Shown here in pieces: positions 34,529-55,857 of a DNA stretch of 64,000 nt (positions are counted from its first letter, which is position 1; each line of letters opens with the position of its first letter). The translations under genes and the position numbers were made by a program. Where the stretch lies: NCBI GenBank assembly GCA_963377175.1, contig CAUJNA010001500.1:2501-66500 (forward strand). Reading direction: 5' to 3'. The notes below the pieces were generated by a model that had not been told where the DNA came from, ran no database searches, and saw only the letters and a list, made by a program, of their open reading frames with translations. The stretch is from Effrenium voratum. Lineage: Eukaryota > Sar > Dinophyceae > Suessiales > Symbiodiniaceae.

Positions 34529-34539
34529 GGTGTTGCACC
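34529..34539 (+). repeat. Left target-site duplication candidate
   Basis: GGTGTTGCACC abuts the left TIR and recurs directly at 55847-55857. Because the 11-mer is nearly palindromic and the TIR border is ambiguous by a few bases, the true duplication could be 5, 7, 9 or 11 bp. Confidence 0.75.
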
Positions 34540-34993
34540 TACCAAAGGCCAGGCCCCAGTTGGATAAAATCCCCTCAACCGACCAATTCACATAATATGT
34601 TTTCATCATTTCATAACAGAACCTCAACTCAAGATTTGATACATAAATTTTACAAATATTTTTCTAAATTTTCAAAAATATATTTTTCCAAAATCCCAAA
34701 TTCCCAAAATATGTTTTTCCAAAATCCCAAAATATAAAATCCCCTCAACCGACCAATTCACATAATATTTTTCATCATTTCATAACAGAACCTCAACTCA
34801 AGATTTGATACATAAATTTTGTAAATATTTTTCTAAATTCCCAAAACATATTTTCCCAAAATCCCAAATTCCCAAAATATATTTTTCCAAAATCCCAAAT
34901 TCCTAAAATATATTTTCCCAAAATCCCAAATCCCAAAATCCCCATAATTTCAAAACATAAATCTTACAATGTTTTTTTATTGTAAGGTTTATG
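34540..34993 (+). repeat. Left terminal inverted repeat
   Basis: The first roughly 290 bases match the reverse complement of 55846-55550 with one substitution and a short indel. The repeat holds two tandem copies of a module beginning AAATCCCCTCAACCGACC (34567 and 34738), each followed by TTCATCATTTCATAACAG and runs of TTTTCCAAAATCCCAAA. The inner part (about 34830-34993), including a hairpin, matches the inverse of 54803-54950. Confidence 0.88.
34956..34993. terminator. Hairpin CATAAATCTTACAAT family
   Basis: Inverted repeat with 15-base arms, CATAAATCTTACAAT and ATTGTAAGGTTTATG, with one mismatch and a T-rich loop. It lies just past the stop of the minus-strand gene at 35001. Three further members of the family are at 36213, 54803 and 55462. 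A role in 3'-end formation or genome replication is inferred. Confidence 0.65.
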
Positions 34994-35000
34994 GTGTAAT

Positions 35001-35528
35001 TTATAATTTAAGTTCAGGATAATAATTTAATTGACAAATCTCATTTATTTCATACATCATTTTAAAAATAATATTAATATCTCTCACTGTGTTTTTAACA
35101 TTAAACTTTTTATAAATTTCAATATAAAACTTGATATATTCTTTAATATCATCTCCTTTCTTTTGACTATGACACAACATCCTTAATATATCATAAATCA
35201 TTTCATATTTGTTCTTACTGATTTTAAGAAACTGTTTAACATAAACGTAAGGTGGTAATTTATACACAGTTAAAAATATCAAAATGTCATCTTCAACATT
35301 TCTATTATGTCTTCCTTTTAATCTCAACAAACATTTGATTATAGCTTGGTTATCTCTCCAGGTTTTACAATTTTCACATAAATCTTCTTCATCCATTGAA
35401 TAATCAATAATATTATTTATTATTCCATTAGGTAAATTTAATTTATACAATTCCATATTTTCCTTTTTAAAGTGGCAACAGTCGTAGCATTTCTTATTAA
35501 TATACTTATTGATTTCAATACCGTTCAT
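35001..35528 (-). CDS. Zinc-finger protein, PLV paralogue family A (copy 1)
   Basis: This 175-residue protein is of unknown function. The N-terminus has CYDC, then LPNGIINNIIDYS, then CENC: two CxxC pairs around an LP...I.N.I..Y core, suggesting one zinc site closing a short helical module. The rest is helical and Lys/Ile/Asn-rich, without a signal peptide or membrane segment. The same N-terminal layout is found in the next two genes, so the three are paralogues. The start follows a promoter-like leader shared with the gene at 36892. The LP..I..Y core resembles the opening of F-box-like modules used by large DNA viruses, but that is speculation. Confidence 0.7.
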   Translation of the reverse strand: MNGIEINKYINKKCYDCCHFKKENMELYKLNLPNGIINNIIDYSMDEEDLCENCKTWRDNQAIIKCLLRLKGRHNRNVEDDILIFLTVYKLPPYVYVKQFLKISKNKYEMIYDILRMLCHSQKKGDDIKEYIKFYIEIYKKFNVKNTVRDINIIFKMMYEINEICQLNYYPELKL

Positions 35529-35529
35529 T

Positions 35530-35575
35530 TCTTCACTATTAATATAAGGTGTTTTTTCTTTAGGACTATTTCGCC
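35530..35575 (-). promoter_or_regulatory. Conserved AT-rich promoter-like leader
   Basis: Read on the minus strand: TAAAGAAAAAAC, one variable base, CCTTATATTA, one variable base, TAGTGAA, ending 2 bases before the ATG. The same string precedes the gene at 36892. The TTATATTA core is the likely TATA-type element. Confidence 0.6.
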
Positions 35576-35580
35576 TAAAA

Positions 35581-36165
35581 CTAAATTATTAATTTAATTC
35601 TTTCTATTATTTTGTCACATGTTGTTTCATTATAAAAATTATTTTTTATTTGTTTTCTAAACATTCCCATTATTCCAATCGCACGTTTTATTGTATATCT
35701 AAGTTCGTGAGTTTTATACTCATCATTTAAAAACTCATTTAAAAAATCAAACAATACAACGTATTTTAAACGTTTAATATTAAAAGACATATTGTATAAT
35801 TGTTTTACAATACTATAATACTTAAAAATAAAATCATTATTATATCCTTCGTCGTTACATTCTAATAAATTATCAAATCCTTCTATAGTTAAGAAATTAT
35901 TCATTTCAATAAATACAAATATTTCTAAATCATCATCAATAGTTTCATTATTTATAATATCAATATCCTTGTTATTCATATCATCAATTGCTTTTATAAT
36001 TCTATTGCAATTATTGCATATTATATATTGACAAATATTATTACAAACACCATTTGCAAAACCCCGTTCAATTGGTAATTTGAGCATTTCACAGTCATCG
36101 CATTTATAACTCATAAATTTGTCTTTCAATATATTTTTAGCATTGATACCGACTGTATCACTCAT
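35581..36165 (-). CDS. Zinc-finger protein, PLV paralogue family A (copy 2)
   Basis: This 194-residue protein has the same N-terminal plan as its neighbours: CDDC, then LPIERGFANGVCNNICQYI, then CNNC. The C-terminal two thirds is helical and acidic to mid-protein, then basic. No enzyme motif is visible. It is convergent in composition but not close in sequence to copies 1 and 3, so the duplication is old. Its start is preceded on the minus strand by TTAATATATTATAGTAAAATG, a TATA-like box. Probably a regulatory or host-interaction protein; function unknown. Confidence 0.7.
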   Translation of the reverse strand: MSDTVGINAKNILKDKFMSYKCDDCEMLKLPIERGFANGVCNNICQYIICNNCNRIIKAIDDMNNKDIDIINNETIDDDLEIFVFIEMNNFLTIEGFDNLLECNDEGYNNDFIFKYYSIVKQLYNMSFNIKRLKYVVLFDFLNEFLNDEYKTHELRYTIKRAIGIMGMFRKQIKNNFYNETTCDKIIERIKLII

Positions 36166-36212
36166 TTTACTATAATATATTAAGTTATTATTTCTTCAAG
36201 TCATTTTGAAAT

Positions 36213-36249
36213 CATAAATCTTACAATGTTTTTTATTGTAAGGTTTATG
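36213..36249. terminator. Hairpin CATAAATCTTACAAT family
   Basis: Same arms as the hairpin at 34956. It overlaps the stop codon of the minus-strand gene ending at 36245, placing it exactly at a gene 3' end. Confidence 0.65.
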
Positions 36250-36892
36250 GATTAAAATAATGGTCAGGCAATATGTCTTCAAATATGTAATCTACATATT
36301 TATCTATATCACCAATGTATATATATTTGATATTGTTTTTTCCTATTATTGAATAAATATATTCCCAAAAGAATAAATACAACAATAGACATACTTTATA
36401 TTTAGTGTTGTAGTAATACCATATACTATATTTAGTTGCTCTAAATTCGTTCAAGACTTCGTTTATTTTATCTTTGTCTAATAAATGCCAGTCAATCCAT
36501 TCAAACAAATAACGGTATTTTTTGACAAATGCTTTGTATGGTTTAATTGCGTTTATTCCTCCAAACCTCCTAATTAAATCTATATTACTAAAGAATTCAT
36601 CAATTTCATTTTCATATGACTTTCTGGAAATCTTCTGGTAAAAGTGTATAGGAAATCTTGCTTGGTGTCGCATAAAGAATTTTAACTGTAATTGAAACTT
36701 TGTATATCCCTTGTCCTTATGTTCTTCAAGAAAAAACTTTTCAAGGTCTCTTGTTATACAGCATTGATTGCAGTATACATTATATTCACTTATTTTATTA
36801 CATAGATTAGCAGGTAATAACTTATACAATGTTATATTAACATCATTCCTTTTAGTTGTACAACATTCGCAATTTGAATAATTAAATAACAT
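36245..36892 (-). CDS. Zinc-finger protein, PLV paralogue family A (copy 3)
   Basis: This 215-residue protein has an N-terminal CECC, then LLPANLCNKISEYNVY, then CNQC: again paired cysteines around an LP..LCNKI.EY core. A long helical, aromatic-rich body (many Tyr, Trp and Phe) follows. No catalytic motif seen. It shares its promoter leader with copy 1. Together with copies 1 and 2 it forms a left-end cluster next to the TIR, a position where accessory, host-directed genes are common in this virus group (inference). Confidence 0.7.
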   Translation of the reverse strand: MLFNYSNCECCTTKRNDVNITLYKLLPANLCNKISEYNVYCNQCCITRDLEKFFLEEHKDKGYTKFQLQLKFFMRHQARFPIHFYQKISRKSYENEIDEFFSNIDLIRRFGGINAIKPYKAFVKKYRYLFEWIDWHLLDKDKINEVLNEFRATKYSIWYYYNTKYKVCLLLYLFFWEYIYSIIGKNNIKYIYIGDIDKYVDYIFEDILPDHYFNP

Positions 36893-36941: not shown

Positions 36942-37859
36942 TTAAACTTTCAATAATTCGTGTCTCAAATAAGGACTAGTTTTTCCTTCCAAATGAAAGT
37001 AAGATTGCCCTAATTTACTATCAATTGATTTTACTTTAAATACTTCTTTTAACCAATGACTGGTATGTGCCTTTTCGCTTATGCCTTTCTTTCTCATTAT
37101 TTTTACATTACTACCCACTGACAACTCAGGGTATTTTCTAGTATTTCTTGCTTGCATTGTAATATTCATTTTTACTTCGAATTCATTCTTTTTCATTCTT
37201 GCGTCCTTCGGTGTAAATTTAGTTGCGGAATGAATATTCTTATTATTGTAAGTTAATAATATTTCAAAAATATAATCCGTCCATTGGATATTCTGCTTTC
37301 CATTTTTCTTGTCCGCTTCAACTCGTTTAAACAGTTGATCTTTAAAAGTCTGAATTCCACGCTCCGCAAATGCTGGATGACCTCTAGTTCTATGTAATTC
37401 AATTTTCTCCTCCTTCAAATAATCTAATACTGATTGATTAAAAAAACTGCCTTCCTCGTCGGTATAAATTAATTTCGGTTTGCCACCCATCTTATTGATA
37501 TTCTCCATCATTCCTGCTAAAATGTCTGGCGGTTGCTTTGACTTGATAGGCACGATATGCATATATTTGCTAAATATATCAATGCATATCATTCCAATTC
37601 TAAATGTTTGATTTTCCAAATCATTTTTAGAAATGAAAAACATATCAACTTGAAATTCCCAGAAACTATGCGGAGCAATAAAACTATTTTCACCTCTCAT
37701 CTTTCTTTTTTCTTCTACATTCTTACTAAAGAATTCATTAATATCGTTAATTGTAATACTACTATCTTTTTGCTTAGCATCCTTGAGGGTTGTTTGTTTT
37801 GAACCATAACCGCTTCTATCATAATATACACTCTTGATAATTTCTTGTGTTGAACTCAT
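36942..37859 (-). CDS. Retroviral-type (rve) DDE integrase
   Basis: This 305-residue protein carries the RNase-H-fold integrase core. The DDE triad reads D72 (FQVDMFF), D134 (IYTDEEGSF) and E166 (HPAFAERGIQTFKDQL), with the usual strand ICIDIFSKY after the first Asp. It lacks a visible N-terminal HHCC zinc domain. The C-terminal part, including ELSVGSNVKIMRKK and YLRHELLKV, resembles the SH3-like/chromo-like DNA-binding tail of polinton and Ty3-type integrases. It would cut and join the TIR ends to host DNA, producing the short direct repeat seen at the borders. Intact frame. It lies next to the polymerase, as in many rve-type PLVs and mavirus-like elements. Confidence 0.92.
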   Translation of the reverse strand: MSSTQEIIKSVYYDRSGYGSKQTTLKDAKQKDSSITINDINEFFSKNVEEKRKMRGENSFIAPHSFWEFQVDMFFISKNDLENQTFRIGMICIDIFSKYMHIVPIKSKQPPDILAGMMENINKMGGKPKLIYTDEEGSFFNQSVLDYLKEEKIELHRTRGHPAFAERGIQTFKDQLFKRVEADKKNGKQNIQWTDYIFEILLTYNNKNIHSATKFTPKDARMKKNEFEVKMNITMQARNTRKYPELSVGSNVKIMRKKGISEKAHTSHWLKEVFKVKSIDSKLGQSYFHLEGKTSPYLRHELLKV

Positions 37860-37874: not shown

Positions 37875-37907
37875 AATAATTTTGAAAAATTCATTTTCAA
37901 AATTATT
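37875..37907. terminator. Hairpin at polymerase-helicase 3' end
   Basis: Perfect 14-base arms, AATAATTTTGAAAA and TTTTCAAAATTATT, with a 5-base loop. It ends on the first base of the stop codon of the minus-strand helicase gene. Confidence 0.6.
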
Positions 37908-39811
37908 CATGACGCGCTGCAATTGCAATAGACACAAAAGGCGGTGCAGTTTTCAACTGTGTGGCATAACTCATTATCACAACGTTGAGCAGTGAAGTTA
38001 GAACTTATCTTTCCTCCTCTTGTATCTAGATTAAATTTAATTCCGCAGTTTTGGCAACAGGATTTGAAGTATTTTAAGCACCAGTTTTCGTCAATGTATT
38101 GCTCTTCGTCTATTTCTCTTTTTGCTACTCTATCTTGCTGTTTATATCCTTCAACTTTGTTTTTAAAATAGTTGATTACCAAACTCTTAAACATATCTTC
38201 ATCTCCCTCTTTGTTCTTGTAAAAATAGACATTGTTAAAATCCCTCGCTCGTGTGATACTCGTCCACAACCATTCCCTACAAACTAAATAATCTTTGTTC
38301 CATTCGTGAATGGTCATATTATCACTGATTGATGTCCCCTGTCTGCTATGAGTGGTAGCACAGTAGGCATATCTAAAATGCTTATCTACAATATCAATGT
38401 CAAGTGTTCTAATGTTCTCTGTATCCTTAATATCTTGTATTGTTATCTTGTATCCTTCGTTATTAACAACCTTCCACCTAATATTAACATTCAGTTTTCC
38501 TTCCTTGTCCTTTTTGTAAAGTCTGCATATTAAGATTTCTCCAATTTCATATTTGCATGTTTTACCTAATCTTTTTCTAATCTCATTGGATACTGCCTCA
38601 CATCTAATATTTGTATATGCTATGTTGTTTTCACTATTCATAACATCTTTAGTAAATTTGAAATGCTTAACTATCCATTCTTCAACTGCCATCTTTTTAA
38701 TCCAAAAGTCATCATAGATTTCATTCAGTTTCTTTCTGTTTCTTTCTCCTTCTTCTGTATCCTTACCACCTACTCGCTTACATATCTTTAAAAATATATT
38801 ATATTCAAAAATAATGTCAATACATTTGTCAATGTATTCGCCTGCATTTTGAGTATTAGTGAAAGGTTCAATCGGTGGCAGTTGCTTGACATCACCGGCA
38901 CCTATAATTACGATGTCAGGATTGTTATTTGCAAACACCCTTATTTTGTTCAATATGTAAGGACTGGACATATAAATCTCATCAAACACTATACATTGAA
39001 AATCTGAATAATCAAACTTTGGTAGGTCATCCCCTTTATCAACTGGAATACTAAAGAATGTATTTACTGTCACCGCTTCACATTCAATCTCTTGTTTTAA
39101 CATATTTTGAGGCACTACAAAAAGTGTATTGTATCCTAAATTTTCCATATACTTGCCTATAAAACTCTTACCGCTCCCAGCAAATCTTGCTCTAATCATA
39201 ACTCTTCTTTTTTCAATAATCTTATTACAGATGCTTTCAACATCCCACTCATCTTCAATCGGTATTGTTTCATTCTGAAAAGTTGGTATTTTTACTAACT
39301 CATTAAATTTCCAATTGTAATCAGTTTCCAGTTCATAGACTTTATTATTTTCTACTCTCCAGCCTCCAATATCATTATGAAAATCTAACAACTTCTTTGC
39401 CTTCCTTACATCTTTCTTTGCAATATGAAAGGCATCGGTTTTCACCGCATAAACTTTAATACTATTTGCTTTCAGTTTTTCGTATGCTTCATACATGTTA
39501 AAATTATGACCTTGTAATAATAATTCTTTAATATACCTAAATCCGTTCATTAGTTTTCTTTGGTCGGTAAGACAAACAACATAATATTTGGCAGTCTTAC
39601 TTATCTTTTCAGTTTCCCTATATTTCTCGCCCCGTTCGCTGTAATAAGTCTTGCCGTCTTCAACTTTGCAATCGATACCAAATTCAGGAAATGTCATACT
39701 ACCATTTACATGTTGGAAGTATGGTCTCTCATCTTCGGAGAGTTCAATACTCCACTCATCATCGTTTAATAGTTGCCATTTATTAAAACACTCATATTCT
39801 TCATCATCCAA
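37907..39811 (-). CDS. PolB C-terminal palm plus SF1 helicase (frame 3 of 3)
   Basis: Residues 1-160 finish the DNA polymerase. They contain motif C as YAVKTDAFHI (residues 121-130; the first Asp of the usual DTD is Lys) and the thumb-start IGGWRVE. Residues 200-540 are an SF1 (Dda/RecD2-like) helicase: Walker A FAGSGKS (210-216), Walker B CIVFDEIYM, motif III GAGDVKQLPP (304-313), AYTN (398-401), motif V-like THSRQGTS (487-494) and motif VI WTSITRAR. The C-terminus has a Cys-rich zinc ribbon (CCQNC, C...C, CVYC). The first residue given (39811) is a non-ATG codon. The frame is open upstream and continues the polymerase gene after a one-base shift at the GGG run 39832-39834. No ATG is expected here. 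Confidence 0.85.
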   Translation of the reverse strand: MDDEEYECFNKWQLLNDDEWSIELSEDERPYFQHVNGSMTFPEFGIDCKVEDGKTYYSERGEKYRETEKISKTAKYYVVCLTDQRKLMNGFRYIKELLLQGHNFNMYEAYEKLKANSIKVYAVKTDAFHIAKKDVRKAKKLLDFHNDIGGWRVENNKVYELETDYNWKFNELVKIPTFQNETIPIEDEWDVESICNKIIEKRRVMIRARFAGSGKSFIGKYMENLGYNTLFVVPQNMLKQEIECEAVTVNTFFSIPVDKGDDLPKFDYSDFQCIVFDEIYMSSPYILNKIRVFANNNPDIVIIGAGDVKQLPPIEPFTNTQNAGEYIDKCIDIIFEYNIFLKICKRVGGKDTEEGERNRKKLNEIYDDFWIKKMAVEEWIVKHFKFTKDVMNSENNIAYTNIRCEAVSNEIRKRLGKTCKYEIGEILICRLYKKDKEGKLNVNIRWKVVNNEGYKITIQDIKDTENIRTLDIDIVDKHFRYAYCATTHSRQGTSISDNMTIHEWNKDYLVCREWLWTSITRARDFNNVYFYKNKEGDEDMFKSLVINYFKNKVEGYKQQDRVAKREIDEEQYIDENWCLKYFKSCCQNCGIKFNLDTRGGKISSNFTAQRCDNELCHTVENCTAFCVYCNCSAS

Positions 39812-40905
39812 AACATACAGTCTGCCTCCATGGGTTCTTTGATGATGTAAAGCATGCCTACATTGTCAAAGATCCTACTCACTGACTTTCTGTTATATGA
39901 TTTTTCCATTAGTCCAAAAGTAATATTTGCTATTGTCTTCTTGATTTTGTTGTTTTGCTCCTCGTCAGGACTGATGTTTGATTTAAACAATTCGCTTATC
40001 GCTTTCTTGTATTTTACCTTCAACACTTGCGACGGTGTTTTATAATATAGTATTTTCATCACAACGCCTCTTTTAACCAATTCTTTTAAGTATTTACCAT
40101 ACACCAGATTAATTTTTTTGTTAAAAAAGATGTTGCCCTGATTTGCTTGAACATAATACAGTGTGTAATTGTTAAATCTGTTGAAATCGCAAGTGTGATC
40201 GTAAGGTTTCCACACATCAAATTCTTTAAAAATCGGGATATAATTAATCTTGCTTCCTTGATGTGTAAATGCTTTACATGTGTCAATGCTACATCTTTCA
40301 TCGGTTTCTACTTCCTTACCTACATTGCTTCTCATCATGCCGTGTGCTACAATTGTTCTGCATTCATCCAAAATCTGGACATCAACTTCATTATAATAAC
40401 TCTTGTAGTTTTCGCACAACAATTTTCTGTTAAATTTAAACATTTCTTCGCTGATGTTATTATATACTTCTTCTTCGTCAACTGCGATGTCCTCATCAAT
40501 TCTGTCTCTGTCAAAATTCTGGTTTACTATTGAATAATAAACTTTCTTTTGCTTCTTTCCTATTTGATGCGTAAAATCCATTTTGACTTCAGTTGTCCTA
40601 CCTGCAGTGTATCCTATTTGTGGTTCATATCCTATCTGCTTGAGTTCAAAAACTGCCTTGTCTAAATCATTGCCTTTCAATATCAACTTGTATTCATCTT
40701 CCTCATTGAGTTTTAATATGTCGTCCAAATTTTCAATCATCTTATATTTGATGGGTGTCTCCCTGCTACTGATGTAATAATTGCTATGGATTTTAAGCTT
40801 ATGGACGTCTTCTACATTCGGGTTTGCTTTAAGATTTTTCATGTCGTGGTTCAATGTGTAAATATGACTGTTCTTTACTAAACCGTTAAAAGTAATTATT
40901 TTCTG
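39766..40905 (-). CDS. Family-B DNA polymerase palm/fingers (frame 2 of 3)
   Basis: The middle section of the replicative polymerase. Counting from TTG codon 40854, motif A is IDTCKAF (Asp191) and motif B KKTIANITFG (about 305-314). YQMI-like 3'-5' exonuclease motifs were not recognised. The frame is open from 40905, reading QKIITFNGLVKNSHIYTLNH, a natural continuation of the preceding frame's DPKDFNSRK. It runs out of frame after 39834 into a tail ending NGNY. No good ATG or promoter precedes it, so it is a segment of one long gene, not a separate protein. PLV and polinton PolBs are usually protein-primed; a priming-specific insert could not be confirmed by eye. Confidence 0.82.
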   Translation of the reverse strand, partial: QKIITFNGLVKNSHIYTLNHDMKNLKANPNVEDVHKLKIHSNYYISSRETPIKYKMIENLDDILKLNEEDEYKLILKGNDLDKAVFELKQIGYEPQIGYTAGRTTEVKMDFTHQIGKKQKKVYYSIVNQNFDRDRIDEDIAVDEEEVYNNISEEMFKFNRKLLCENYKSYYNEVDVQILDECRTIVAHGMMRSNVGKEVETDERCSIDTCKAFTHQGSKINYIPIFKEFDVWKPYDHTCDFNRFNNYTLYYVQANQGNIFFNKKINLVYGKYLKELVKRGVVMKILYYKTPSQVLKVKYKKAISELFKSNISPDEEQNNKIKKTIANITFGLMEKSYNRKSVSRIFDNVGMLYIIKEPMEADCMFWMMKNMSVLINGNY

Positions 40906-42008
40906 CTATTGAAGTCTTTTGGGTCATGCTTGTAAATCAATTTGCTGTCAATGTCATAAATTCTTGCTTTGATGTCAAACTGTTTAAACACAGCATCCAT
41001 TTGCATGATTGAAGCACCGTGCTTTTTGAAGTTTTCATCGCTTTTGTTGATGATTTCTAATATCCTCTCTCTGGTTAAATTCTTCTTTTTGGTTCTTTTG
41101 TGCCTCATCAGCGTGTCCGCGTAGTGTTCCATCAACGTATTAATCCAGCACTCATTTTCAATATGCTCACCTTTTTTTATTGCTTCCTTCAATGTTAAGC
41201 AGTCAGGGTTCAATTCGGTTTGAATGTATCTATGATGAATACTTATGTTATGTTTAGCGTCGGTGAGTTCATCATCAAAAATATCATAATCTACTGCGTC
41301 CTCATCAACTAAGTCGGCGCTTTCTATTTTGATGCAATCAAGGTAGTTATAAACCTCGCCATCTGTAAAACTCTTAAACGCTGGGTCGCTTCTCATCACT
41401 GCCACCAGTTTATGAAACTTATGTTTATCAAAATGCTTTGTAATTTTAACATTAACAGCATTAGTAATAAACTCCCACTGTGCTTTTACGTTGCCTGCCC
41501 TTTTAACGTTAGGATATAGCAACGGGTAGTATTTAATACCATTCAATCTAAAAAAACCGGATTTTGTAGCGCGTCCTTCGTCTTTAGTAAAAAGAATATA
41601 TTTAATAACAATCGTTTTTCTGTCCTTCGTTATGTTGTCTCTATACATCCTTTGAATTCTTCGTAAGGGTGTTTTTTCATTAATTCTTCTCCTGATTGTT
41701 GCTAGTTTCTTGCCTCTGACTGCCTTTTCAGTTGTTGGTTTCATTCTCTCGCCTATGGGTGCTATGTTTTGGTATTTGGCAACTGCCTTTTCATATTGCT
41801 TCAGTCCTTTCTTCAATTCCTTGTCGTTTGTTGCAATGATGCCATTGATTAATTTGTTTGCCGTGTCAAATTGAACAATTTTGCGGTCTTCATAAAAATC
41901 AATGATGGTATTGACTTTCTGTAGGGTTTGAGCGGTAATACTGCCCCTTTTCCTGTCTCTTGTGTTTTTTAGGTCTTGAATGTTTGTATCTATACGTTTT
42001 TTTGTCAT
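40896..42008 (-). CDS. Polymerase N-terminal region (frame 1 of 3)
   Basis: 370 residues, the 5' end of the polymerase-helicase gene: basic N-terminus, helical linker, then a segment with IYDIDSKLIYKHDPKDF at the end. It stops at TAA (40896-40898) right after an AAAA run (TTTT at 40899-40902). Reading one extra A would carry it straight into the polymerase frame. Taken together, 42008 to 37907 would encode roughly 1,365 residues. The start ATG at 42008 follows an AT-rich leader. The N-terminal 200 residues match no domain I recognise; they could be a primase-like, terminal-protein or DNA-binding region. Confidence 0.75.
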   Translation of the reverse strand: MTKKRIDTNIQDLKNTRDRKRGSITAQTLQKVNTIIDFYEDRKIVQFDTANKLINGIIATNDKELKKGLKQYEKAVAKYQNIAPIGERMKPTTEKAVRGKKLATIRRRINEKTPLRRIQRMYRDNITKDRKTIVIKYILFTKDEGRATKSGFFRLNGIKYYPLLYPNVKRAGNVKAQWEFITNAVNVKITKHFDKHKFHKLVAVMRSDPAFKSFTDGEVYNYLDCIKIESADLVDEDAVDYDIFDDELTDAKHNISIHHRYIQTELNPDCLTLKEAIKKGEHIENECWINTLMEHYADTLMRHKRTKKKNLTRERILEIINKSDENFKKHGASIMQMDAVFKQFDIKARIYDIDSKLIYKHDPKDFNSRK

Positions 42009-42475: not shown

Positions 42476-43393
42476 TTATTTTAGATTTTGTTTTTCTTTA
42501 TTCTTATCTTTATCCTTATCTTCTTCATCGGTTTCAGCATCAGTAGGAATAGGAATGTCGGTCGGCGGTGCTATTTCATAATTAACATTTTCTTCTGATG
42601 ACGACGTTGAATTAACGGTATGTGTTGAAGAACTATTAACAGTGATAGGTGGAGAACTATTAACGCTAACAGGGGGAGAAGTGTTTAACTCAACTTCTTC
42701 ATCAGTATTATTACTTAACCAATTCATAATACCATTAGTAATATCAAAAGTTGTAATTAGTGAATTTCCTATAATGTATGCTGTCAATTCAGTAATTTGT
42801 AGAGTGGTTAATGTAGTTTGATAAGTTATATGTATTATTATTTCTGCTACACTAAAACCCGACCTTAACATAAATTCTATAATCCTAATCAGGTTTAAAC
42901 TTTTCTTTTTGTTTCCGTTATCATCATCGTCGTCGTCGTCTGGTTCATCTGCATCATCACCATCTTGAATAGGTTTGAATAAGGATGCTTGTACTTCTGC
43001 CTCTGCCCTATTCTTAAGATTACTTTTAAAACTCTTTGAAAATCCGTCTGAAATCAAACCTGTATAATCAATGTCATCAGTTTGTGTTTCTTTATCATTT
43101 GGTAGGTCTGTTTGTGTTTCTTTGACTTCTCTGATAGGAAACTGTGTTGCTTTGTCAAGTGTCATTACCGGGAACATATCAGTATCATATTTATTATTGT
43201 TTAAACTCATATATTTCTTGTTAATGCCATAATTCGTTAAATCAAATTCGTCAAAATCAACTTCATTCATTAATAAATCTACTCTCCGTTTTTCTGGGAT
43301 GGTTGTTATTATCAGTCTGTGTGTCATCGCTTCTTTAAGCATTTCATCAAAGGTTTTCCTTCTTCTCAATCCATAATATTTAGTATTACTCAT
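42476..43393 (-). CDS. Acidic protein with repeated KETQT (LC8-type) motifs
   Basis: 305 residues, family unknown. The N-terminal third is basic and mixed. Residues 81-105 hold KATQF, KETQT and KETQT at exact 10-residue spacing. A run of Asp follows (about 150-162), then a hydrophobic helical region (about 168-228: LNLIRIIEFMLRSGFSVAEI and beyond). Next comes a Ser/Thr/Pro-rich repeat (SSPPITVNSS, TSPPVSVNSS) and a highly charged Lys/Asp/Glu tail. KxTQT is the known core of dynein light chain LC8 partners. The layout suggests a virion-associated or assembly protein with a membrane-active middle, but that is inference. Confidence 0.6.
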   Translation of the reverse strand: MSNTKYYGLRRRKTFDEMLKEAMTHRLIITTIPEKRRVDLLMNEVDFDEFDLTNYGINKKYMSLNNNKYDTDMFPVMTLDKATQFPIREVKETQTDLPNDKETQTDDIDYTGLISDGFSKSFKSNLKNRAEAEVQASLFKPIQDGDDADEPDDDDDDDNGNKKKSLNLIRIIEFMLRSGFSVAEIIIHITYQTTLTTLQITELTAYIIGNSLITTFDITNGIMNWLSNNTDEEVELNTSPPVSVNSSPPITVNSSSTHTVNSTSSSEENVNYEIAPPTDIPIPTDAETDEEDKDKDKNKEKQNLK

Positions 43394-43419
43394 TATTAAA
43401 TATTATAGATTAATTATTG

Positions 43420-43749
43420 TTAATCACGTGTTTGACCCGATGAGGACGCCTTTTCTTCTTTCATATACTTATTATATACATGCTTTTTGTAAAAATCTAT
43501 CAATTTGGTTTTGTTTTCCTGTTTTTTAACGTTGGTTTCACTTTCAATCAATTCGCTAATTAAGTTGTTGAATTCTATGTATATATCATCTTTCATTAAT
43601 CCGACATTATATATTTTATCAATGATGCGTTTCATGTCCATTGGAACATTTGCTAAATATAAGGGTGTATTTCCTCTGATTTCATCTATGAAATCTTCAA
43701 CTTTACTTAGGTCATCATCGTCGTCTTTACCCTCTTTCTCTTTCTTCAT
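43420..43749 (-). CDS. Small charged protein of unknown function
   Basis: About 110 residues from ATG 43749 (MKKEKEGKDDDDDLSKVEDF), with a helical Ile/Tyr-rich body and a Ser-rich end. The first 23 bases overlap the 3' end of the preceding gene in another frame, so expression could be coupled. Alternatively the two were once one protein split by a one-base change, since the upstream frame's DEERERG and this frame's KEKEGK are the same DNA. No domain recognised. Confidence 0.55.
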   Translation of the reverse strand: MKKEKEGKDDDDDLSKVEDFIDEIRGNTPLYLANVPMDMKRIIDKIYNVGLMKDDIYIEFNNLISELIESETNVKKQENKTKLIDFYKKHVYNKYMKEEKASSSGQTRD

Positions 43750-44275: not shown

Positions 44276-44284
44276 ATTATATGT

Positions 44285-44315
44285 ATTATTTAGATAATTT
44301 ATTTATCTAAATAAT
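44285..44315. terminator. AT-rich hairpin
   Basis: Perfect 13-base arms ATTATTTAGATAA and TTATCTAAATAAT, located just past the stop of the minus-strand gene at 44323. Confidence 0.6.
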
Positions 44316-44322
44316 AAATAAG

Positions 44323-44655: not shown

Positions 44656-44685
44656 GATTAATATATAATATAATTAGATTATTAT

Positions 44686-47611: not shown

Positions 47612-48994
47612 ATGGAAACTTTTAGTGCTGAAGATATTCTAATTGACAACCTCTCATTCAAACTAAATAAAGGTGCAAGTTATATCAACGACCGTCGTTC
47701 TGTCTCGTTTTTTCCTTCTGGGAGTAATATCTACACCCCTTCATCTGGTCAACGTGTGTTGAAAATAGCATTAAATGCTGAAGATAATACTTGGCTTGAC
47801 CCGCAGAGTGTAATGGTTTATTTCACTGTTGAAAACACTGACTCGTCAGACAATAAACGCTTACGTCCTCTGTCTCCTGCTTATTCCTTTTTTAGAAGAG
47901 CAAGACTAATTGCTGGTAATCAACTTGTTGAAGACATTGATTATTACAACCGAAATCATCACATGATGAGTTGCATGATGTCAAAAGGAGCAAGAGACAA
48001 TGAAGACGCCCAGAGTTTTGGTTATAGATATGATGATGATTTAAACACACGTCGTGCAGTTCCTGCATCGGGTCATATTGGTCCTGCATATGACGCTTAC
48101 ACAATTCCAGGCTTTAACAGAAAAATGGTTGTAGGATTTAAACCGATGCTTGGTTTATTCAATCAATATAAGTATATCCCGTTAAAAGCGTGTCCTCTTG
48201 TTTTAGAACTTGAACTAGTTTCAAATTTTACTGATTGTGTTGTTTCAGCGGGCGGGTCGAGGTTTCCAGAAAGTGGCAACGCAGACTCAAGCCTTCATAC
48301 AAATGAGCAGTTCTCAATTAGTAACGCATTCCTTCAAACTGATTTGGTAAGCTTGGACAACGACCTTCATAATAAATATGTTGCACACCTACTTGATGGG
48401 AAAGAATTACCTATTACTTATAATACCTACATTTGTCAATCTAATCAAGTTCCCGATGGTTCGTCGTCAATTAACACTACTGTTGTTCGTTCAGTGTCTA
48501 AACTCGCTACCGCGTTCATCTCTTTCAGTAAAAGCGGAGTAGGTGATATTCACGTTATGAAAGAATACAACAACTTCTATCATCCTATGTATTATTTGAA
48601 CTACCAAGAAAGCGGATACTACAATCACGACCTTGATTTAGAATTTCAACTTCAATTAGGGTCAAAACTATATCCTGAGTATCCATGCCGTTCATTAACA
48701 CAAGCATTCTATTATTTACGAAAAGCATTAAATTTACCATTGTTCCATCAACACCATTTATCGATTGAATATTCTGCTTATCGTGTTGATAAGTTTATCT
48801 TTGCTATGGATTTCGAAAAGGTTCCCGATAGTTCATATACTGGAATTAACACAAAAGCAGGGCAACAACTTTTAATTCGTGTGAAACCTATTGGAAATAT
48901 GGTAACAGCAAATATGCCAGATACAATATATATAACATTAGTATCAGAACAAATATTATCCATTAGAGACGCCGGAGTGCAGATACTTGATTAA
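47612..48994 (+). CDS. Major capsid protein, double jelly roll
   Basis: 460 residues. It opens with RRSVSFFPSGSNIYTPSSGQ, then LDPQSVMVYFTVEN, RLRPLSPAYSFFRRARLIAG and EDIDYYNRNHHMM. This is the conserved N-terminal jelly-roll signature of PLV and virophage capsid proteins: R.V.F.P.G, LDP.S, FFRR.RI, ED...YNR. The second half has STRLTQAFYYLRKAL-like helices (SLTQAFYYLRKALNL) and ends DAGVQILD. Trimers of it would form the icosahedral shell. Length is normal for the family and the frame is intact. It is followed by a strong hairpin and then the fibre gene. Leader: AATTATATATAGTA. Confidence 0.92.
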   Translation: METFSAEDILIDNLSFKLNKGASYINDRRSVSFFPSGSNIYTPSSGQRVLKIALNAEDNTWLDPQSVMVYFTVENTDSSDNKRLRPLSPAYSFFRRARLIAGNQLVEDIDYYNRNHHMMSCMMSKGARDNEDAQSFGYRYDDDLNTRRAVPASGHIGPAYDAYTIPGFNRKMVVGFKPMLGLFNQYKYIPLKACPLVLELELVSNFTDCVVSAGGSRFPESGNADSSLHTNEQFSISNAFLQTDLVSLDNDLHNKYVAHLLDGKELPITYNTYICQSNQVPDGSSSINTTVVRSVSKLATAFISFSKSGVGDIHVMKEYNNFYHPMYYLNYQESGYYNHDLDLEFQLQLGSKLYPEYPCRSLTQAFYYLRKALNLPLFHQHHLSIEYSAYRVDKFIFAMDFEKVPDSSYTGINTKAGQQLLIRVKPIGNMVTANMPDTIYITLVSEQILSIRDAGVQILD

Positions 48995-49058: not shown

Positions 49059-51836
49059 ATGCCTTCAATAAATTTAACAAACTTTGAAAATGTTGTAGCG
49101 CACACAATTAGCGAAATCAATTCTACAAGCGGGGTGACAAACATTAGAAACATATACGCTAATCAATCAGATATAATTGATTTACTCAACAATAAAGCAG
49201 ACCAAGTAGATACTTACACAAAAGCACAGGTTGACGCTAATTTTTATGATATAACTCAATCATATAACAAAACAGAAGTTAATGTATTATCAAATAATAT
49301 TAGTTCAAATGCTTATTTTATTATGAATAATACAGCAACAATAGCAAGTAATTTAGTTAATGTTTCATCAAATACATTTTTAATAGGTAATCTGACAATA
49401 ACTTCAAATACAAATTTTAATAATATTTCATCAAATACACATTTAATAAATAATTTAAATTCTACTATAACGACTAATTTTAATAATATTAGTTCTAATA
49501 CTAATTTAATTAATACCAATATTAATAATATTTCTTCAAATACTACTTTAATAAATACAAATATTAATAATACTTCATCAAATACACATTTAATAAATAA
49601 TTTGAATTCTACTGTAACAACTAATTTTAATAATATTTCATCAAATTCTCATTTAATATCTCAATTACAAACAGGTTCATTTAATGAAGCAGATTATTAT
49701 AATAAAATAACAACTAATAATTTATTATCAGAAAAGTTAAACACATCAGTATTAAATAATACATTAATACATAATATAACAACTACTGCAACTTTCAAAA
49801 TAGCAGAATTTGGAAATTATAACAATTTCTTTGAAATGTATAATAATTATTTTGACAGTTATGTTTATGGAAGTTTGACTGGTTCAACTATGTTTTTAAA
49901 CCAGCGAGGGTTTGGAGATGTAGAAATTAATAATTCTTCAACTTTTCAAAATGATAAAATAATATTAAATCATAATACCACAATATTAAGTAATTTACAA
50001 GTATCTGGTTTATTTTCATGTTCATCTATTTTAGATATAGCAGGTTCAGATGCTCGTTATGTTTTACAATCAGATGGATTAAGTGGATTAATAACGGGAA
50101 ATACAAATACAATTAATTCAATAATTACAAATGATAGCGCACAAGATACAGTAATAAGTCAAAAATTAGACAAAGTTAATACAACTGCACAAACAGTAAA
50201 CTCTCCGTTAATACTTAGTTTAACAGATAATACTAATCCAATATTCAGAATCCAGGACGCAGTTAGTAACCAAAGACTCGAGTTTAAACGGGGGTGTCAG
50301 TTAGACTCTTATCAAGGGTTAACAGGTGCTACTCCTTATAGATTATGGTTGGGATGGAATACGGGAGATGTTATTATTGGAAGACCTAATAATGCTTCAA
50401 GAATTACAATTAATGGTAATGTTCATACTTCATACAATTTTGCTCAAGCACATGGAACATCATATTTCGAAGGTGCTGTTTATATGAAAGGAAATTTATT
50501 TACAAATAATGATTTTTCAACAGATATTAAAACAAAAATTGATAATATCAATACTTCAATAAATGGACTAGAACCATATTTAGAAACATATACACCAGAT
50601 GCAACAGAAGGTTTTTATATACATCATCCTAATTTTGTTGCTGTTAGCGTTGGTGATATTACTAATGCCAGTAATCAATATATGATGTGTGATGGATTGG
50701 TGAATAAAACTATTTTTAGTAAACCCGTTGATGTGTTAGGTAACATTTATACAAATGCCGCTGTTAATTGTGATAATGTTAATATTGATACTGATGGTAA
50801 ATTAACAATTGATACAAATTGTGAATTATATAGATATGTTAGTGCTTTTTCATCTTTTGATATGAGGAATAGTGATGCTAATTCTTCAATTAGATTTATT
50901 TGTGGAGACCCTGCTGTTCAATCTAATATAGTTGGAGCAGTTAATATTTCTACTGGATGGACTTTTAACACAAGCACTGTTGATGTAATGGGTAATTTAT
51001 TTGCTGATGATATTTATGTTAAAAGCGGAGGAGCACTAAGAAGTAATAATATAGCACCTAATGGTGGAACATTAGTAACTGTTGACACTAATATGGCAAT
51101 ACAAAACGCTTATCTAGCAACTAATACCATTCAATCATTTGATTTAACAACGGTTTCATTTTTGAATAATATTTCAATGACTACTGGAACAGATCTAAAG
51201 ATGGGAACAAGTGAAATATCAACTTATTATGATGGAACTAGTTTATCTACAATTGATGTAATATTCAGAACATCAAATACTGCATTTAGAGTTGCTGATA
51301 GTTCTACTACTCCTTCTGTTCTATTATCTATTGATAAGACATTTGGGACAACAGTAAATACTGAAAGTTTTACAAATAATGCTCCATCGACTTTTAATGA
51401 AAATGTAACAATTGCAGGAACGAAAAAATTGTTATGTAATTTAATTGAACCATCAACAGGAACTAATATAGATTTAACAGCAACAACAGTAACCATCAAC
51501 GGAACGTTTGTTGATTCATCTGATTCAAGATTAAAATATGATATAGATAATATTAAATCTAATTGTATGGATATTATTAAGAAATTTAAACCGAAGAAAT
51601 TTAAGAGACACGATAGAAATGATGACGGTAAAACTCATATAGGATATATAGCAGATGAAGTCTTAAAAGTAATTCCTAAAGAATTTGAAAATGTTGTTAG
51701 TAAAGACAGAGAGTATTTAGGATTAAATTATTTAGTTTTACCAGTGTTAGTTCATAAAGCAGTATTAGAATTAAATGATAAAGTAGATAAACTTGAAAAA
51801 GAAATTAAGGAATTGAAAAAAGAAAAATCTAAATAA
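49059..51836 (+). CDS. Fibre protein with S74 auto-processing chaperone
   Basis: 925 residues. Residues about 75-205 are a repeat array of NNISSNTHLINNLNST-like units with Asn/Ser/Thr periodicity, typical of beta-helical or trimeric fibre shafts. A long Asn/Thr-rich body follows. The last 107 residues are a peptidase-S74 intramolecular chaperone. SSDSRLKYDI (Ser821 the likely cleavage residue, Lys826 its partner) is followed by FKPKKFKRH, HIGYIADEV and LNYLVLPVLVHKAV, and a C-terminal coiled coil LEKEIKELKKEK. In phage tail spikes such domains drive trimer folding and then cut themselves off. By analogy this is a receptor-binding vertex fibre. Frame intact. Confidence 0.88.
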   Translation: MPSINLTNFENVVAHTISEINSTSGVTNIRNIYANQSDIIDLLNNKADQVDTYTKAQVDANFYDITQSYNKTEVNVLSNNISSNAYFIMNNTATIASNLVNVSSNTFLIGNLTITSNTNFNNISSNTHLINNLNSTITTNFNNISSNTNLINTNINNISSNTTLINTNINNTSSNTHLINNLNSTVTTNFNNISSNSHLISQLQTGSFNEADYYNKITTNNLLSEKLNTSVLNNTLIHNITTTATFKIAEFGNYNNFFEMYNNYFDSYVYGSLTGSTMFLNQRGFGDVEINNSSTFQNDKIILNHNTTILSNLQVSGLFSCSSILDIAGSDARYVLQSDGLSGLITGNTNTINSIITNDSAQDTVISQKLDKVNTTAQTVNSPLILSLTDNTNPIFRIQDAVSNQRLEFKRGCQLDSYQGLTGATPYRLWLGWNTGDVIIGRPNNASRITINGNVHTSYNFAQAHGTSYFEGAVYMKGNLFTNNDFSTDIKTKIDNINTSINGLEPYLETYTPDATEGFYIHHPNFVAVSVGDITNASNQYMMCDGLVNKTIFSKPVDVLGNIYTNAAVNCDNVNIDTDGKLTIDTNCELYRYVSAFSSFDMRNSDANSSIRFICGDPAVQSNIVGAVNISTGWTFNTSTVDVMGNLFADDIYVKSGGALRSNNIAPNGGTLVTVDTNMAIQNAYLATNTIQSFDLTTVSFLNNISMTTGTDLKMGTSEISTYYDGTSLSTIDVIFRTSNTAFRVADSSTTPSVLLSIDKTFGTTVNTESFTNNAPSTFNENVTIAGTKKLLCNLIEPSTGTNIDLTATTVTINGTFVDSSDSRLKYDIDNIKSNCMDIIKKFKPKKFKRHDRNDDGKTHIGYIADEVLKVIPKEFENVVSKDREYLGLNYLVLPVLVHKAVLELNDKVDKLEKEIKELKKEKSK

Positions 51837-52062: not shown

Positions 52063-52085
52063 ACATTAAACAATAAATTTAATGT
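52063..52085. terminator. Hairpin between convergent genes
   Basis: 8-base arms ACATTAAA and TTTAATGT, between the small plus-strand gene and the ATPase stop. Confidence 0.45.
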
Positions 52086-52855
52086 TATTGATTAGTTATT
52101 TTCAAATATTGTGAAAAGTTTTTCATAAACATTTTATCTGGGTTCTTTTCTAAAAGGTTAATATATAAAAAACTATGCGGTTCATCAGTGGCAGTTTCAT
52201 ATATTTTATAAATTAATTTCTTGCTTTCGTGTAAATTATCGCTTCTAACAATTGCTGATAATTCATCTTGCAATATTTCAATTTCTTTGTAGTTTCTAAC
52301 TTTATAATAAAACAAATGACTTATATTTACTCTAATAATTGGTGGCACGGTTGATGATTTTTGAAGACTGACAAGTGTTGATATTCCACTATGGCGACCT
52401 CTACAAAATAAAGAATTTAACAATTTGTTATTTCTTGTTATTGCTGGATTATCAGATACATCATCCAATATAACTAATATATTAAACAATTTCTTCGTTC
52501 CTTGTTTTTTCTGGTATTCAATTATTTTATTTTGAGTTTCTATAACTCTTTCTAAATCTTCAACATTGAACTCATCCCACCAACACGGTTCTTTATCAGT
52601 ATCTACTTTCAAACCTTCTTTAATGTATTTCTTAACAGGCAACCAAATACTATCCAAATTTACAGATGGGGACCAGATAAAAATTCTTTCAAATGCTCCT
52701 CTATAAATATCAAGTATCATTGATACAAGTAGCGTACTCTTTCCAGAGCCTGACGGCCCTACAATCATCGCTCTCATCGGCAATTTAGGGACGACCTCGT
52801 GCTTACTTTGCTTAAAGTCAAATTTGATTTCATCAATTGGTTTTACATCAGGCAT
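52085..52855 (-). CDS. Genome-packaging ATPase (A32/FtsK-HerA type)
   Basis: 256 residues. Walker A is GPSGSGKST (33-41), preceded by the strand MRAMIV. Walker B is NILVILDD (125-132), then a sensor-like SLQKSS (163-168), the usual layout of A32-like DNA-packaging ATPases of PLVs, virophages and NCLDVs. CRGRHSGIST (151-160) corresponds to the conserved RHxxxS segment. It pumps viral DNA into preformed capsids. Frame intact; ATG 52855 is preceded by an AT-rich leader. Confidence 0.9.
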   Translation of the reverse strand: MPDVKPIDEIKFDFKQSKHEVVPKLPMRAMIVGPSGSGKSTLLVSMILDIYRGAFERIFIWSPSVNLDSIWLPVKKYIKEGLKVDTDKEPCWWDEFNVEDLERVIETQNKIIEYQKKQGTKKLFNILVILDDVSDNPAITRNNKLLNSLFCRGRHSGISTLVSLQKSSTVPPIIRVNISHLFYYKVRNYKEIEILQDELSAIVRSDNLHESKKLIYKIYETATDEPHSFLYINLLEKNPDKMFMKNFSQYLKITNQ

Positions 52856-53968: not shown

Positions 53969-54051
53969 TACTTAAAGAGTAGATTTTACATTAAATCAAT
54001 TTTATAATTAAATATTTAAATAAATAATTATATAAATAAATATATATAGAA

Positions 54052-54381: not shown

Positions 54382-54411
54382 AACATTATCTAAATCATTC
54401 TAATAAACAAT

Positions 54412-54486
54412 ATGAATTTATTAGAATTATTTAGTGGAACTGGAAGTGTAGGAACCATAGCAAAGTCGCTTGGATTTAATGATGCC
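54412..54486 (+). pseudogene. 5' end of a C5-cytosine DNA methyltransferase, interrupted
   Basis: The first 25 residues, MNLLELFSGTGSVGTIAKSL followed by GFNDA, are motif I (FSGTGSVG) of the DNA cytosine-5 or related methyltransferase family, including the SAM-binding loop. The coding sequence then runs directly into a GC-rich tandem repeat. No later methyltransferase motif (PCQ or ENV) is found before the right TIR. A truncated remnant: the rest was deleted or replaced by the repeat. Confidence 0.7.
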
Positions 54487-54782
54487 CGCAAAATGGCGGT
54501 CAGGGTGGCCGAAAAGTGGCGGTCAGGCTGGCCGAAAAGTGGCGGTCAGGCGGTCAGGCTGGCCGAAAAGTGGCGGTCAGGCTGGCCGAAAAGTGGCGGT
54601 CAGGGTGGCCGAAAAGTGGCGGTCAGGCTGGCCGAAAAGTGGCGGTCAGGGTGGCCGAAAAGTGGCGGCCAGGGTGGCCGAAAAGTGGCGGCCAGGCGGC
54701 CAGGGTGGCCGAAAAGTGGCGGTCAGGCGGCCAGGCTGGCCGAAAATGGTGGGCAGGGTGCCCCGAAAATGGTGGGCAGGGT
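54486..54782 (+). repeat. GC-rich 23-bp satellite inside the element
   Basis: About ten units of GGCCGAAAAGTGGCGG plus TCAGG(C/G)T, some with an inserted CGGTCAGG or GGCCAGG. Because 23 is not a multiple of three, all three plus frames stay open and cycle through WPKSGGQ, GRKVAVR and AEKWRSG. Composition is host-like, in sharp contrast to the flanking AT-rich viral DNA. Confidence 0.93.
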
Positions 54783-54802
54783 TTATGACTAGTAAATTAA
54801 CA

Positions 54803-54840
54803 CATAAACCTTACAATTTAATTTTATTGTAAGATTTATG
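54803..54840. terminator. Hairpin CATAAACCTTACAAT family
   Basis: Arms CATAAACCTTACAAT and ATTGTAAGATTTATG. The inner copy of the TIR hairpin, downstream of the interrupted methyltransferase. Confidence 0.65.
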
Positions 54841-54955
54841 TTTTGAAATTATGGGGATTTTATATTTTGGGATTTTGGGAAAATATATTTTAGGAATTTG
54901 AGATTTTGGAAAAATATATTTTTGAAAATTTAGAAATTTGGATTTTTAAGATGGT
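54803..54955 (-). repeat. Inner part of the right terminal inverted repeat
   Basis: Reverse complement of about 34840-34993 with few changes, including TTTTGAAATTATGGGGATTT and TTTTGGGAAAATATATTTTA. It is separated from the outer right TIR (55504-55846) by the zinc-finger gene at 54970. Confidence 0.75.
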
Positions 54956-54969
54956 CTGGTCTTAAAGAC

Positions 54970-55443
54970 ATGCCACCTATCAATAGTAGCATGGAGATGA
55001 CTGACAAAATGCAAAAATGTAGGCGATGTGAAAACACTTATCCACCTGACCTATTTAATGTTAGAGTGCATATTTGTGATTACTGCCGAGAACAAAGTAA
55101 AATTGATAGGAAGGAAAAGAAAAAGGAATATAATAAAGTGCGTAATCAGATTGAAATAGAATGTGATATTTGCCAGTGTAAAGTGAGGAAATCTGCAATA
55201 TCCAAGCATTTGAAAACGTTGAAGCATATTGAGAATGAGAATAAAGTAAAAACAACAGTTGAGGAAGAAAAACCTAATGAAATTGAAAATTCAAAACCTC
55301 CAGTAGCACCAGAGGTCAAAAAGGAAATGGAGGAAGTGAAGGACAAAGTTTTTCAAATTGTAGGTGAATTACCCTTTCTGGAAAATTATTTCATTTCAGC
55401 ATATTCCGTGAGGAATTCTGCAATTATTCAAATTATGAAATAA
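54970..55443 (+). CDS. Zinc-finger protein nested in the right TIR
   Basis: 157 residues. A CRRCENTYPPDLF...CDYC pair (residues 17-42) looks like a zinc ribbon with the YPPDLF phrase seen in algal and giant-virus proteins. A C2H2 finger follows, CDICQCKVRKSAISKHLKTL, ending KH. The remainder is Glu/Lys/Pro-rich. The gene and its own hairpin sit between the inner and outer halves of the right inverted repeat and have no counterpart in the left repeat. Probably a nucleic-acid-binding regulator. Confidence 0.65.
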   Translation: MPPINSSMEMTDKMQKCRRCENTYPPDLFNVRVHICDYCREQSKIDRKEKKKEYNKVRNQIEIECDICQCKVRKSAISKHLKTLKHIENENKVKTTVEEEKPNEIENSKPPVAPEVKKEMEEVKDKVFQIVGELPFLENYFISAYSVRNSAIIQIMK

Positions 55444-55461
55444 TATGATTTAAATTTTAAC

Positions 55462-55497
55462 CATAAACTTTACAATAATAATATTGTAAAATTTATG
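55462..55497. terminator. Hairpin CATAAACTTTACAAT family
   Basis: Arms CATAAACTTTACAAT and ATTGTAAAATTTATG with a short loop, 20 bases past the stop of the zinc-finger gene. Confidence 0.65.
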
Positions 55498-55503
55498 ATT
55501 TAC

Positions 55504-55846
55504 ATTTCTTGGGAAAAATGATAATTTGGTTTAAAAAAATATTTTTGAAAATTTAGAAAATTTACAAAATTTATGTATCAAATCTTGAGTTGAGGTTCTG
55601 TTATGAAATGATGAAAAATATTATGTGAATTGGTCGGTTGAGGGGATTTTATATTTTGGGATTTTGGAAAAACATATTTTGGGAATTTGGGATTTTGGAA
55701 AAATATATTTTTGAAAATTTAGAAAAATATTTGTAAAATTTATGTATCAAATCTTGAGTTGGGGTTCTGTTATGAAATGATGAAAACATATTATGTGAAT
55801 TGGTCGGTTGAGGGGATTTTATCCAACTGGGGCCTGGCCTTTGGTA
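55504..55846 (-). repeat. Right terminal inverted repeat (outer part)
   Basis: From 55846 inward it matches 34540 onward for about 290 bases with one substitution and one 7-base gap. It holds the same two AAATCCCCTCAACCGACC modules (inverted, ends near 55819 and 55648). Confidence 0.88.
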
Positions 55847-55857
55847 GGTGTTGCACC
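55847..55857 (+). repeat. Right target-site duplication candidate
   Basis: GGTGTTGCACC, a direct copy of 34529-34539. Confidence 0.75.

Follow-up and report, generated by a model that had tools for sequence, protein, structure and literature searches.

The question raised by this locus is whether the GC-poor segment within the window (the whole 64,000-nucleotide stretch analysed) is an integrated virus, in whose genome it resides, and whether its combination of genes is a new one. According to our analysis, it is in all probability an integrated polinton-like virus (PLV), i.e. a provirus, of ~21.3 kb, most likely situated in a dinoflagellate nuclear genome. Terminal inverted repeats (TIRs), a direct repeat, GC contrast, capsid fold, ATPase, integrase and polymerase-helicase all point to this reading, and they bear out the proposal of a nuclear integrated PLV made in the initial annotation. 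Having both ends and the host junctions on one contig, the locus presents a cleanly bounded PLV, probably of a dinoflagellate, that integrates by rve and has its protein-primed polymerase fused to a helicase.

Borders of the element

GC content is 29.7% within positions 34540-55846, compared with 53.6% in the left flank and 60.7% in the right one. At the left border, GGTGTTGCACC (34529-34539) is followed by TACCAAAGG..., while at the right border ...CCTTTGGTA precedes the second copy of GGTGTTGCACC (55847-55857). The direct repeat thus adjoins both TIR ends, as had been described before, and the outer coordinates, 34529 and 55857, are identical to those given earlier. Because the ends of the repeat (GGTG/CACC) are complementary, the length of the putative target-site duplication could, judging from a single copy of the element, be 3, 5, 7, 9 or 11 bp, of which 5 would suit an rve integrase. 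The TIR cores, 290 nt each, show 2 mismatches between 34540-34829 and 55557-55846, and the best local alignment of the repeats has 328 matches in 344 columns (34527-34870 against 55523-55859). The two 1-kb border stretches have 267 inverted 16-mers in common, with a maximum of 0 obtained in 200 shuffles of the left stretch. TIRs and an integration site, as expected of a PLV, are therefore both present. The left TIR also contains an internal direct duplication, ~169 bp apart.

Table 1. Features of the element, in order of position in the window.
Feature	Position	Strand	Remarks
Direct repeat, left copy	34529..34539		11 bp, GGTGTTGCACC, putative target-site duplication
Left TIR	34540..34829		290-nt core; similarity continues to about 34870
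Three neighbouring ORFs	35001-35528, 35581-36165, 36245-36892	-	Two CxxC motifs each
rve-type DDE integrase	36942..37859	-	305 aa
Palm motif C, SF1 (Pif1/RecD-like) helicase and Cys-rich C-terminal domain	37907..39811	-	634 aa, TTG start
Palm motifs A and B	39766..40854	-	362 aa; frame broken towards motif C
Replication protein, N-terminal part	40896..42008	-	370 aa; vOTU Cys motif NECWINTL
Small ORFs, four or five	42476-43393, 43420-43749, 43727-44275, 44323-44655, 44686-45180	-	
Penton (minor capsid) homologue	45340..46083	-	247 aa; frame broken near C-terminus
Putative lipase / alpha-beta hydrolase	46237..46860	+	207 aa; ITHSLGSS motif; weak
Major capsid protein (MCP)	47612..48994	+	460 aa; double jelly roll fold
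Fibre-like protein, C-terminal Peptidase_S74 (endosialidase chaperone) domain	49059..51836	+	925 aa
A32-type genome-packaging ATPase	52085..52855	-	256 aa; PF04665 1.7e-15 (above cut-off), phrog_2666 6.2e-13
ORF running into GC-rich 23-bp minisatellite	54412..54792	+	
Right TIR	55557..55846		Pairs with 34540-34829
Direct repeat, right copy	55847..55857		GGTGTTGCACC

Gene content

Among the genes expected of a PLV, the MCP has the double jelly roll fold and the packaging ATPase is of the A32 type. The MCP sequence gave two chance-level matches against PDB and nothing else, and no relatives of it were found in IMG/VR, GTDB contigs or phage records (the latter searched by tblastn). The presence of a penton or minor capsid protein is suggested by a weak match of the penton profile (A2) to P1v1 of PBCV-1 (chain 8h2i_bG, E 8.4e-4, 93 profile positions), P1 of PBCV-1 being what we take to be the penton protein; the ORF has 113 homologues in the database. 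The fibre ORF matches PF13884 (2.6e-11) and the tail fibre family phrog_1980 (8.8e-21). The integrase triad, D72-D134-E166, was assigned by eye, and the ORF matches Pfam rve (3.6e-4) and NCBIfam IS481 (2.5e-7), both under the family cut-offs, as well as phrog_956 transposase (9.9e-6) and, weakly, one integrase in PDB (E 0.029).

Open frames are kept by the capsid, ATPase and fibre genes. The penton ORF has 247 aa vs 284-285 aa in its four closest relatives, and closely related database copies carry longer frames of both polymerase and penton, whose breaks here are due to either decay or assembly error. The element had been described as near-complete and as holding a full set of core genes. Both ends are indeed present, as are MCP, penton homologue, ATPase, integrase, S74 fibre and SF1 helicase, but two of the core genes, penton and polymerase, are frame-broken. 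The lipase claimed in the same description is recognisable at the level of an HSLG motif; its only family matches are weak and differently named (Peptidase_M57, 0.014; PHA depolymerase, 0.0083), and no match was found in PHROGs or PDB.

If these genes work together as proposed, the integrase would join linear TIR-ended DNA to the host, leaving a short target-site duplication, and replication of the genome would fall to the protein-primed polymerase with its fused SF1 helicase. Virion formation, which we infer, would involve the ATPase filling a capsid of double-jelly-roll protein and pentons with this genome, while trimeric fibres processed by S74, perhaps together with the lipase, may act in entry.

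As for the remaining ORFs, the three with CxxC motifs (35001..36892) have no Pfam family at E 0.1, and BLASTP did not establish them as paralogues, giving E 3e-4 for the first pair and 0.067 for the second. Three of the small ORFs in 42476..45180 have no convincing Pfam family. The start of the 54412..54792 ORF resembles what we take to be motif I of a DNA cytosine methyltransferase, and the ORF has no PHROGs or NCBIfam family.

The replication protein

The polymerase and SF1 helicase noted in the initial annotation are both present, but the three ORFs at 37907..42008 are parts of one vOTU-palm-SF1-helicase protein, which is fused in relatives and here broken twice, once inside the vOTU part and once on the way from palm motif B to motif C. 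Immediately downstream of the 40896..42008 ORF, a different frame holds the vOTU His segment. The palm is that of a protein-primed PolB with motifs A, B and C, the first Asp of motif C being replaced (KTDAFHI), and the helicase is located C-terminally within the same protein, the arrangement of the Tlr1-like pPolB-S1H. The helicase ORF shares 97% identity with P0234, a protein of 944 aa with 215 member sequences, and also matches RecD (4.1e-6). In an alignment (A4) of 33 sequences hand-picked from the best 120 of 263 helicase-ORF relatives, the Asp of motif A, the Lys and Asp of motif C, the Lys of Walker A and the Asp of Walker B are each found in 33/33 rows, and the vOTU Cys and His in 10/10 and 19/19, respectively, counting rows that extend there.

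The structure model of a 69%-identical relative (P0236) matches Pif1 helicase (E 1.4e-13) and phi29 polymerase (E 6.4e-9), with no OTU fold seen among the matches listed. The phi29 match covers positions 203..639 of the model and 6..499 of the chain (357 aligned residues), and since it begins at residue 6, the model seems to contain an equivalent of some of the exonuclease region. The Tlr1-like polymerase-helicase fusion is described as being without an exonuclease domain (PMC11071308), and a search for a degenerate exonuclease by profile comparison gave no sequence support. Tentatively, we put forward the possibility that the element represents a large PLV lineage of dinoflagellates in which rve integration goes together with a Tlr1-type replication protein, and whose polymerase retains, between the vOTU and the palm, an exonuclease fold in degenerate form. 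In such a case, loss of this fold would postdate the gain of the helicase, and the catalytically dead exonuclease would be kept as a scaffold.

Alternatively, the element could be a strict-sense polinton, or else a transposon with capsid genes which moves only within the genome and no longer forms virions. The joint presence of an rve integrase and a polymerase, the hundreds of database sequences closely related to its proteins (MCP, penton, helicase) and the broken polymerase and penton frames would fit such an origin. We consider it unlikely, as the capsid, ATPase and fibre frames are open, the polymerase is of the helicase-fused type described from PLVs and transpovirons (PMC11071308), and no capsid maturation protease was recognised in the 20 larger element ORFs scanned with Pfam. 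An integrated PLV is preferred.

Host and flanking sequences

Both flanks are GC-rich and repeat-rich. In the right flank, a retroelement reverse transcriptase was found (RVT_1 9.2e-6, under the cut-off), with a reverse-transcriptase-like motif, RRLEVVANGLPLWGG, which to our eyes looks dinoflagellate. Pfam over 20 of the 212 listed flank ORFs gave RVT_1 and one methyltransferase domain (MTS 9.5e-14), along with weak matches to AAA_11, GP38, TEP1 and Atrophin-1. Searches for tRNA and Rfam families found none, and the closest site to the dinoflagellate spliced leader has 6 mismatches of 21 and no exact core.

A dinoflagellate host had already been proposed, and it is likely on stronger evidence now: among the best 120 of 263 helicase-ORF relatives, all six rows named from EukProt bear 'Skav' gene numbers, which denote gene models of the dinoflagellate Fugacium kawagutii (PMC6517890). 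These are also the nearest named relatives among the best 120 of 263, with 69, 67 and 70% identity. The same evidence makes it improbable that the host is another alga or protist harbouring the same PLV lineage, to which MCP and penton relatives of 34-47% identity on short metagenome contigs and the same polymerase-integrase pair on an IMG/VR contig (L001) could otherwise point. A free virus or contaminating contig fused to host DNA through mis-assembly, compatible with the sharp GC change at both ends, is highly improbable, given that the same 11-bp sequence adjoins both TIR ends as expected from integration, that the flanks are alike in being GC-rich and repeat-rich, and that close MCP relatives (P0001) sit on contigs as long as 674 kb.

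Relation to known elements

The gene complement had been taken for a new combination, a view that cannot be maintained. The rve integrase together with pPolB-S1H is already known from Tlr1 (PMC11071308) and occurs in L001, lipases are described as common in PLVs (PMC4642659), S74 fibres are reported as a ubiquitous trait of the PLVs in most eukaryotic groups, and an 18.5-kb rve-encoding PLV has been published from the dinoflagellate Polarella glacialis, where its 5-nt duplication is GTTAT (PMC12220804), compared with GTTGC here if the duplication is of 5 nt. As described in PMC11071308 and PMC4642659, Tlr1 of Tetrahymena thermophila and other PLVs with a Tlr1-like pPolB-S1H have the rve integrase, ATPase and both capsid proteins in common with the element, as well as the vOTU-palm-SF1 helicase protein in which motif C lacks its first Asp, another residue standing in its place. 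The host lineage differs, and the C-terminal domain of Tlr1 is GIY-YIG, whereas that of the element is Cys-rich (HNH-like by eye).

As far as their described features go, published dinoflagellate PLVs resemble the element in host group, size, GC contrast and TIRs; a figure legend gives ~21.2 kb for the polinton of S. kawagutii (PMC12721341). Dinoflagellate PLVs include those of the 'Dino' MCP group, 2,535 capsid genes are reported for P. glacialis, and dinoflagellate genomes are said to hold thousands of such elements (PMC10120064). The element is a further example of this already known class of dinoflagellate-filling elements. With thousands of them reported, the family could offer a handle on the recency of movement and on particle formation, one that rests on the hundreds of close relatives and the nearly identical TIRs.

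Within dinoflagellates, the polymerase of P. glacialis is described as being without a helicase (PMC12721341), in contrast to the fused one found here. OmPLV of Oxyrrhis marina is, like the element, an endogenous dinoflagellate PLV with SF1 helicase and pPolB in one protein, with frame breaks (frequent in OmPLV) and with retroelements nearby; on the other hand, its description has the helicase N-terminal and a tyrosine recombinase, with neither rve nor a target-site duplication (PMC12721341). The element does not match the OmPLV type, having an rve-type integrase, the helicase C-terminal to the palm and a direct repeat.

Scans of IMG/VR gave L001 (IMGVR_UViG_3300049043_000066) as the one related locus, and those of GTDB contigs gave none. 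In L001, homologues of vOTU, palm, SF1 helicase and rve (35-40% identity) follow one another as they do in the element. L001 differs in that neither MCP nor penton had a match at E 1e-3 within the 23,474 of its 66,423 bases that were covered. Long ORFs are few, with 8 reaching 120 aa or more, so that it may be decayed.

Borders of the element

The polinton-like virus (PLV) integrated in the contig is a genuine element with well-defined borders, and the kind of element it represents is already on record. Its GC content is 29.7%, versus 53.6% in the left and 60.7% in the right flank, and its ends are formed by terminal inverted repeats (TIRs) of 290 nt that differ at 2 positions, with 328 matches over 344 columns in the local alignment. 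In contrast to the remaining element, the outermost 25 nt of the TIR have 60% GC. Both ends are adjoined by an 11-bp direct repeat, GGTGTTGCACC. The two ends of this repeat are complementary to each other, so that duplication lengths of 3, 5, 7, 9 or 11 bp are all compatible with perfect TIRs. At 5 bp the duplication would be GTTGC, and a 5-nt duplication, GTTAT, is given for an rve-encoding PLV of Polarella glacialis in PMC12220804. Each TIR also contains an internal direct duplication, with the copies about 169 bp apart.

Coordinates of the element, its ORFs and repeats, and of features in the flanks
Feature	Position	Strand	Remark
Integrated PLV	34540-55846		21.3 kb
Direct repeats	34529-34539, 55847-55857		11 bp
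TIRs	34540-34829, 55557-55846		290 nt
Three neighbouring ORFs	35001-36892	minus	two CxxC motifs apiece
rve-type integrase ORF	37859-36942	minus	D-D-E triad assigned by eye
Polymerase-helicase, third piece	39811-37907	minus	palm motif C, then SF1 helicase; assigned by motifs
Polymerase-helicase, second piece	40854-39766	minus	palm motifs A and B; assigned by motifs
Polymerase-helicase, N-terminal piece	42008-40896	minus
Minisatellite	54483-54780		23-bp unit
Methyltransferase small-domain ORF	32126-32815
Reverse transcriptase	60705-61358
(TG)200 microsatellite	7875-8274

Replication protein and integrase

The three polymerase-helicase ORFs are fragments of a single protein. Two database relatives of the helicase ORF hold the palm motifs and the SF1 helicase on one chain, namely P0234 (944 aa, 97% identity to the third piece, 215 member sequences) and P0236 (1109 aa, 69% identity), the latter being the Fugacium kawagutii gene model Skav222288. 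In an alignment of 33 rows picked from the 120 listed helicase relatives, all 33 had the Asp of motif A, the Lys-x-Asp of motif C, where Lys replaces the initial Asp, the Lys of Walker A and the Asp of Walker B. In the putative vOTU domain, N-terminal to the palm, the Cys was found in 10 of the 10 aligned rows reaching its position, and all 19 rows that extend to the His have it. The predicted structure of P0236 (pLDDT 78.4, pTM 0.66) matched Pif1 with an E value of 1.4e-13 and the phi29 DNA polymerase with 6.4e-9. The replication protein of the element is a Tlr1-like pPolB-S1H, a protein-primed PolB palm fused to an SF1 helicase, as described in PMC11071308. By eye, the Cys-rich segment (CxxC ... 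DNC.AYC..CN) at the C-terminus of the third piece and of P0234 and P0236 appears HNH-like.

In regard to the region between vOTU and palm, the P0236 model hints at a degenerate exonuclease fold in residues 203-349, counter to the published description. The phi29 alignment starts at model residue 203 (residue 6 of the phi29 chain) and comprises 357 aligned residues; as model residues 350-639 account for 290 positions, at least 67 aligned residues precede the palm, in the region occupied by the exonuclease in phi29. Comparison of profiles with nine phage polymerases yielded no more than 38 weak columns, located at motif C, and no sequence support for the exonuclease, so the fold is presented here as a lead and not as a result.

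The integrase ORF matched a PHROG transposase profile (9.9e-6), as well as NCBIfam IS481 (2.5e-7) and Pfam rve (3.6e-4), both under the curated cut-offs.

Relation to known PLVs

The initial annotation suggested that the combination of an rve integrase, PolB-SF1 helicase, lipase and S74 fibre in a dinoflagellate-resident PLV would be new, a claim that is not supported, as each part is already on record in PLVs. Specifically, rve occurs together with pPolB-S1H in Tlr1 (PMC11071308), lipases are recorded in PLVs (PMC4642659), S74 fibres are called "ubiquitous" among PLVs from most groups of eukaryotes (PMC12220804), and dinoflagellate PLVs number thousands (PMC10120064). OmPLV of Oxyrrhis differs from the present element in its recombinase and domain order, and in having no duplication (PMC12721341). 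The IMG/VR contig IMGVR_UViG_3300049043_000066 carries homologues of vOTU, palm, helicase and rve ordered as in the window. Few long ORFs surround these homologues in the 23,474 bases covered, with no match to the major capsid protein (MCP). In the literature searched, no description was found of rve with pPolB-S1H specifically in a dinoflagellate; because the supplementary data of large surveys lay outside this search, no first report is claimed.

Regarding the numbers of relatives, the nearest clusters hold 297 sequences for the MCP (95% identity), 215 for the helicase (97%) and 148 and 191 for the penton (97 and 96%), all of them counts of database members. One MCP homologue, P0120 (561 aa), carries a Peptidase_S74 domain, with capsid and fibre fused in one frame.

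Host and flanking sequences

Of the 263 relatives of the helicase, the best 120 included six rows with EukProt names, and all six were Skav gene models, a numbering that belongs to F. kawagutii in PMC6517890. The left flank contains the methyltransferase small-domain ORF (MTS, 9.5e-14), probably a host gene, and the right flank a reverse transcriptase (RVT_1, 9.2e-6, under its cut-off). A search for the dinoflagellate spliced leader did not find it. Simple repeats are numerous in the flanks, including the (TG)200 microsatellite.

Other ORFs and repeats of the element

The three neighbouring CxxC ORFs are possibly diverged paralogues, with BLASTP E values of 3e-4 and 0.067 for two pairs of them. 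A GC-rich minisatellite lies within the AT-rich element, after the ORF start MNLLELFSGTGSVG, which we take to resemble motif I of cytosine DNA methyltransferases.
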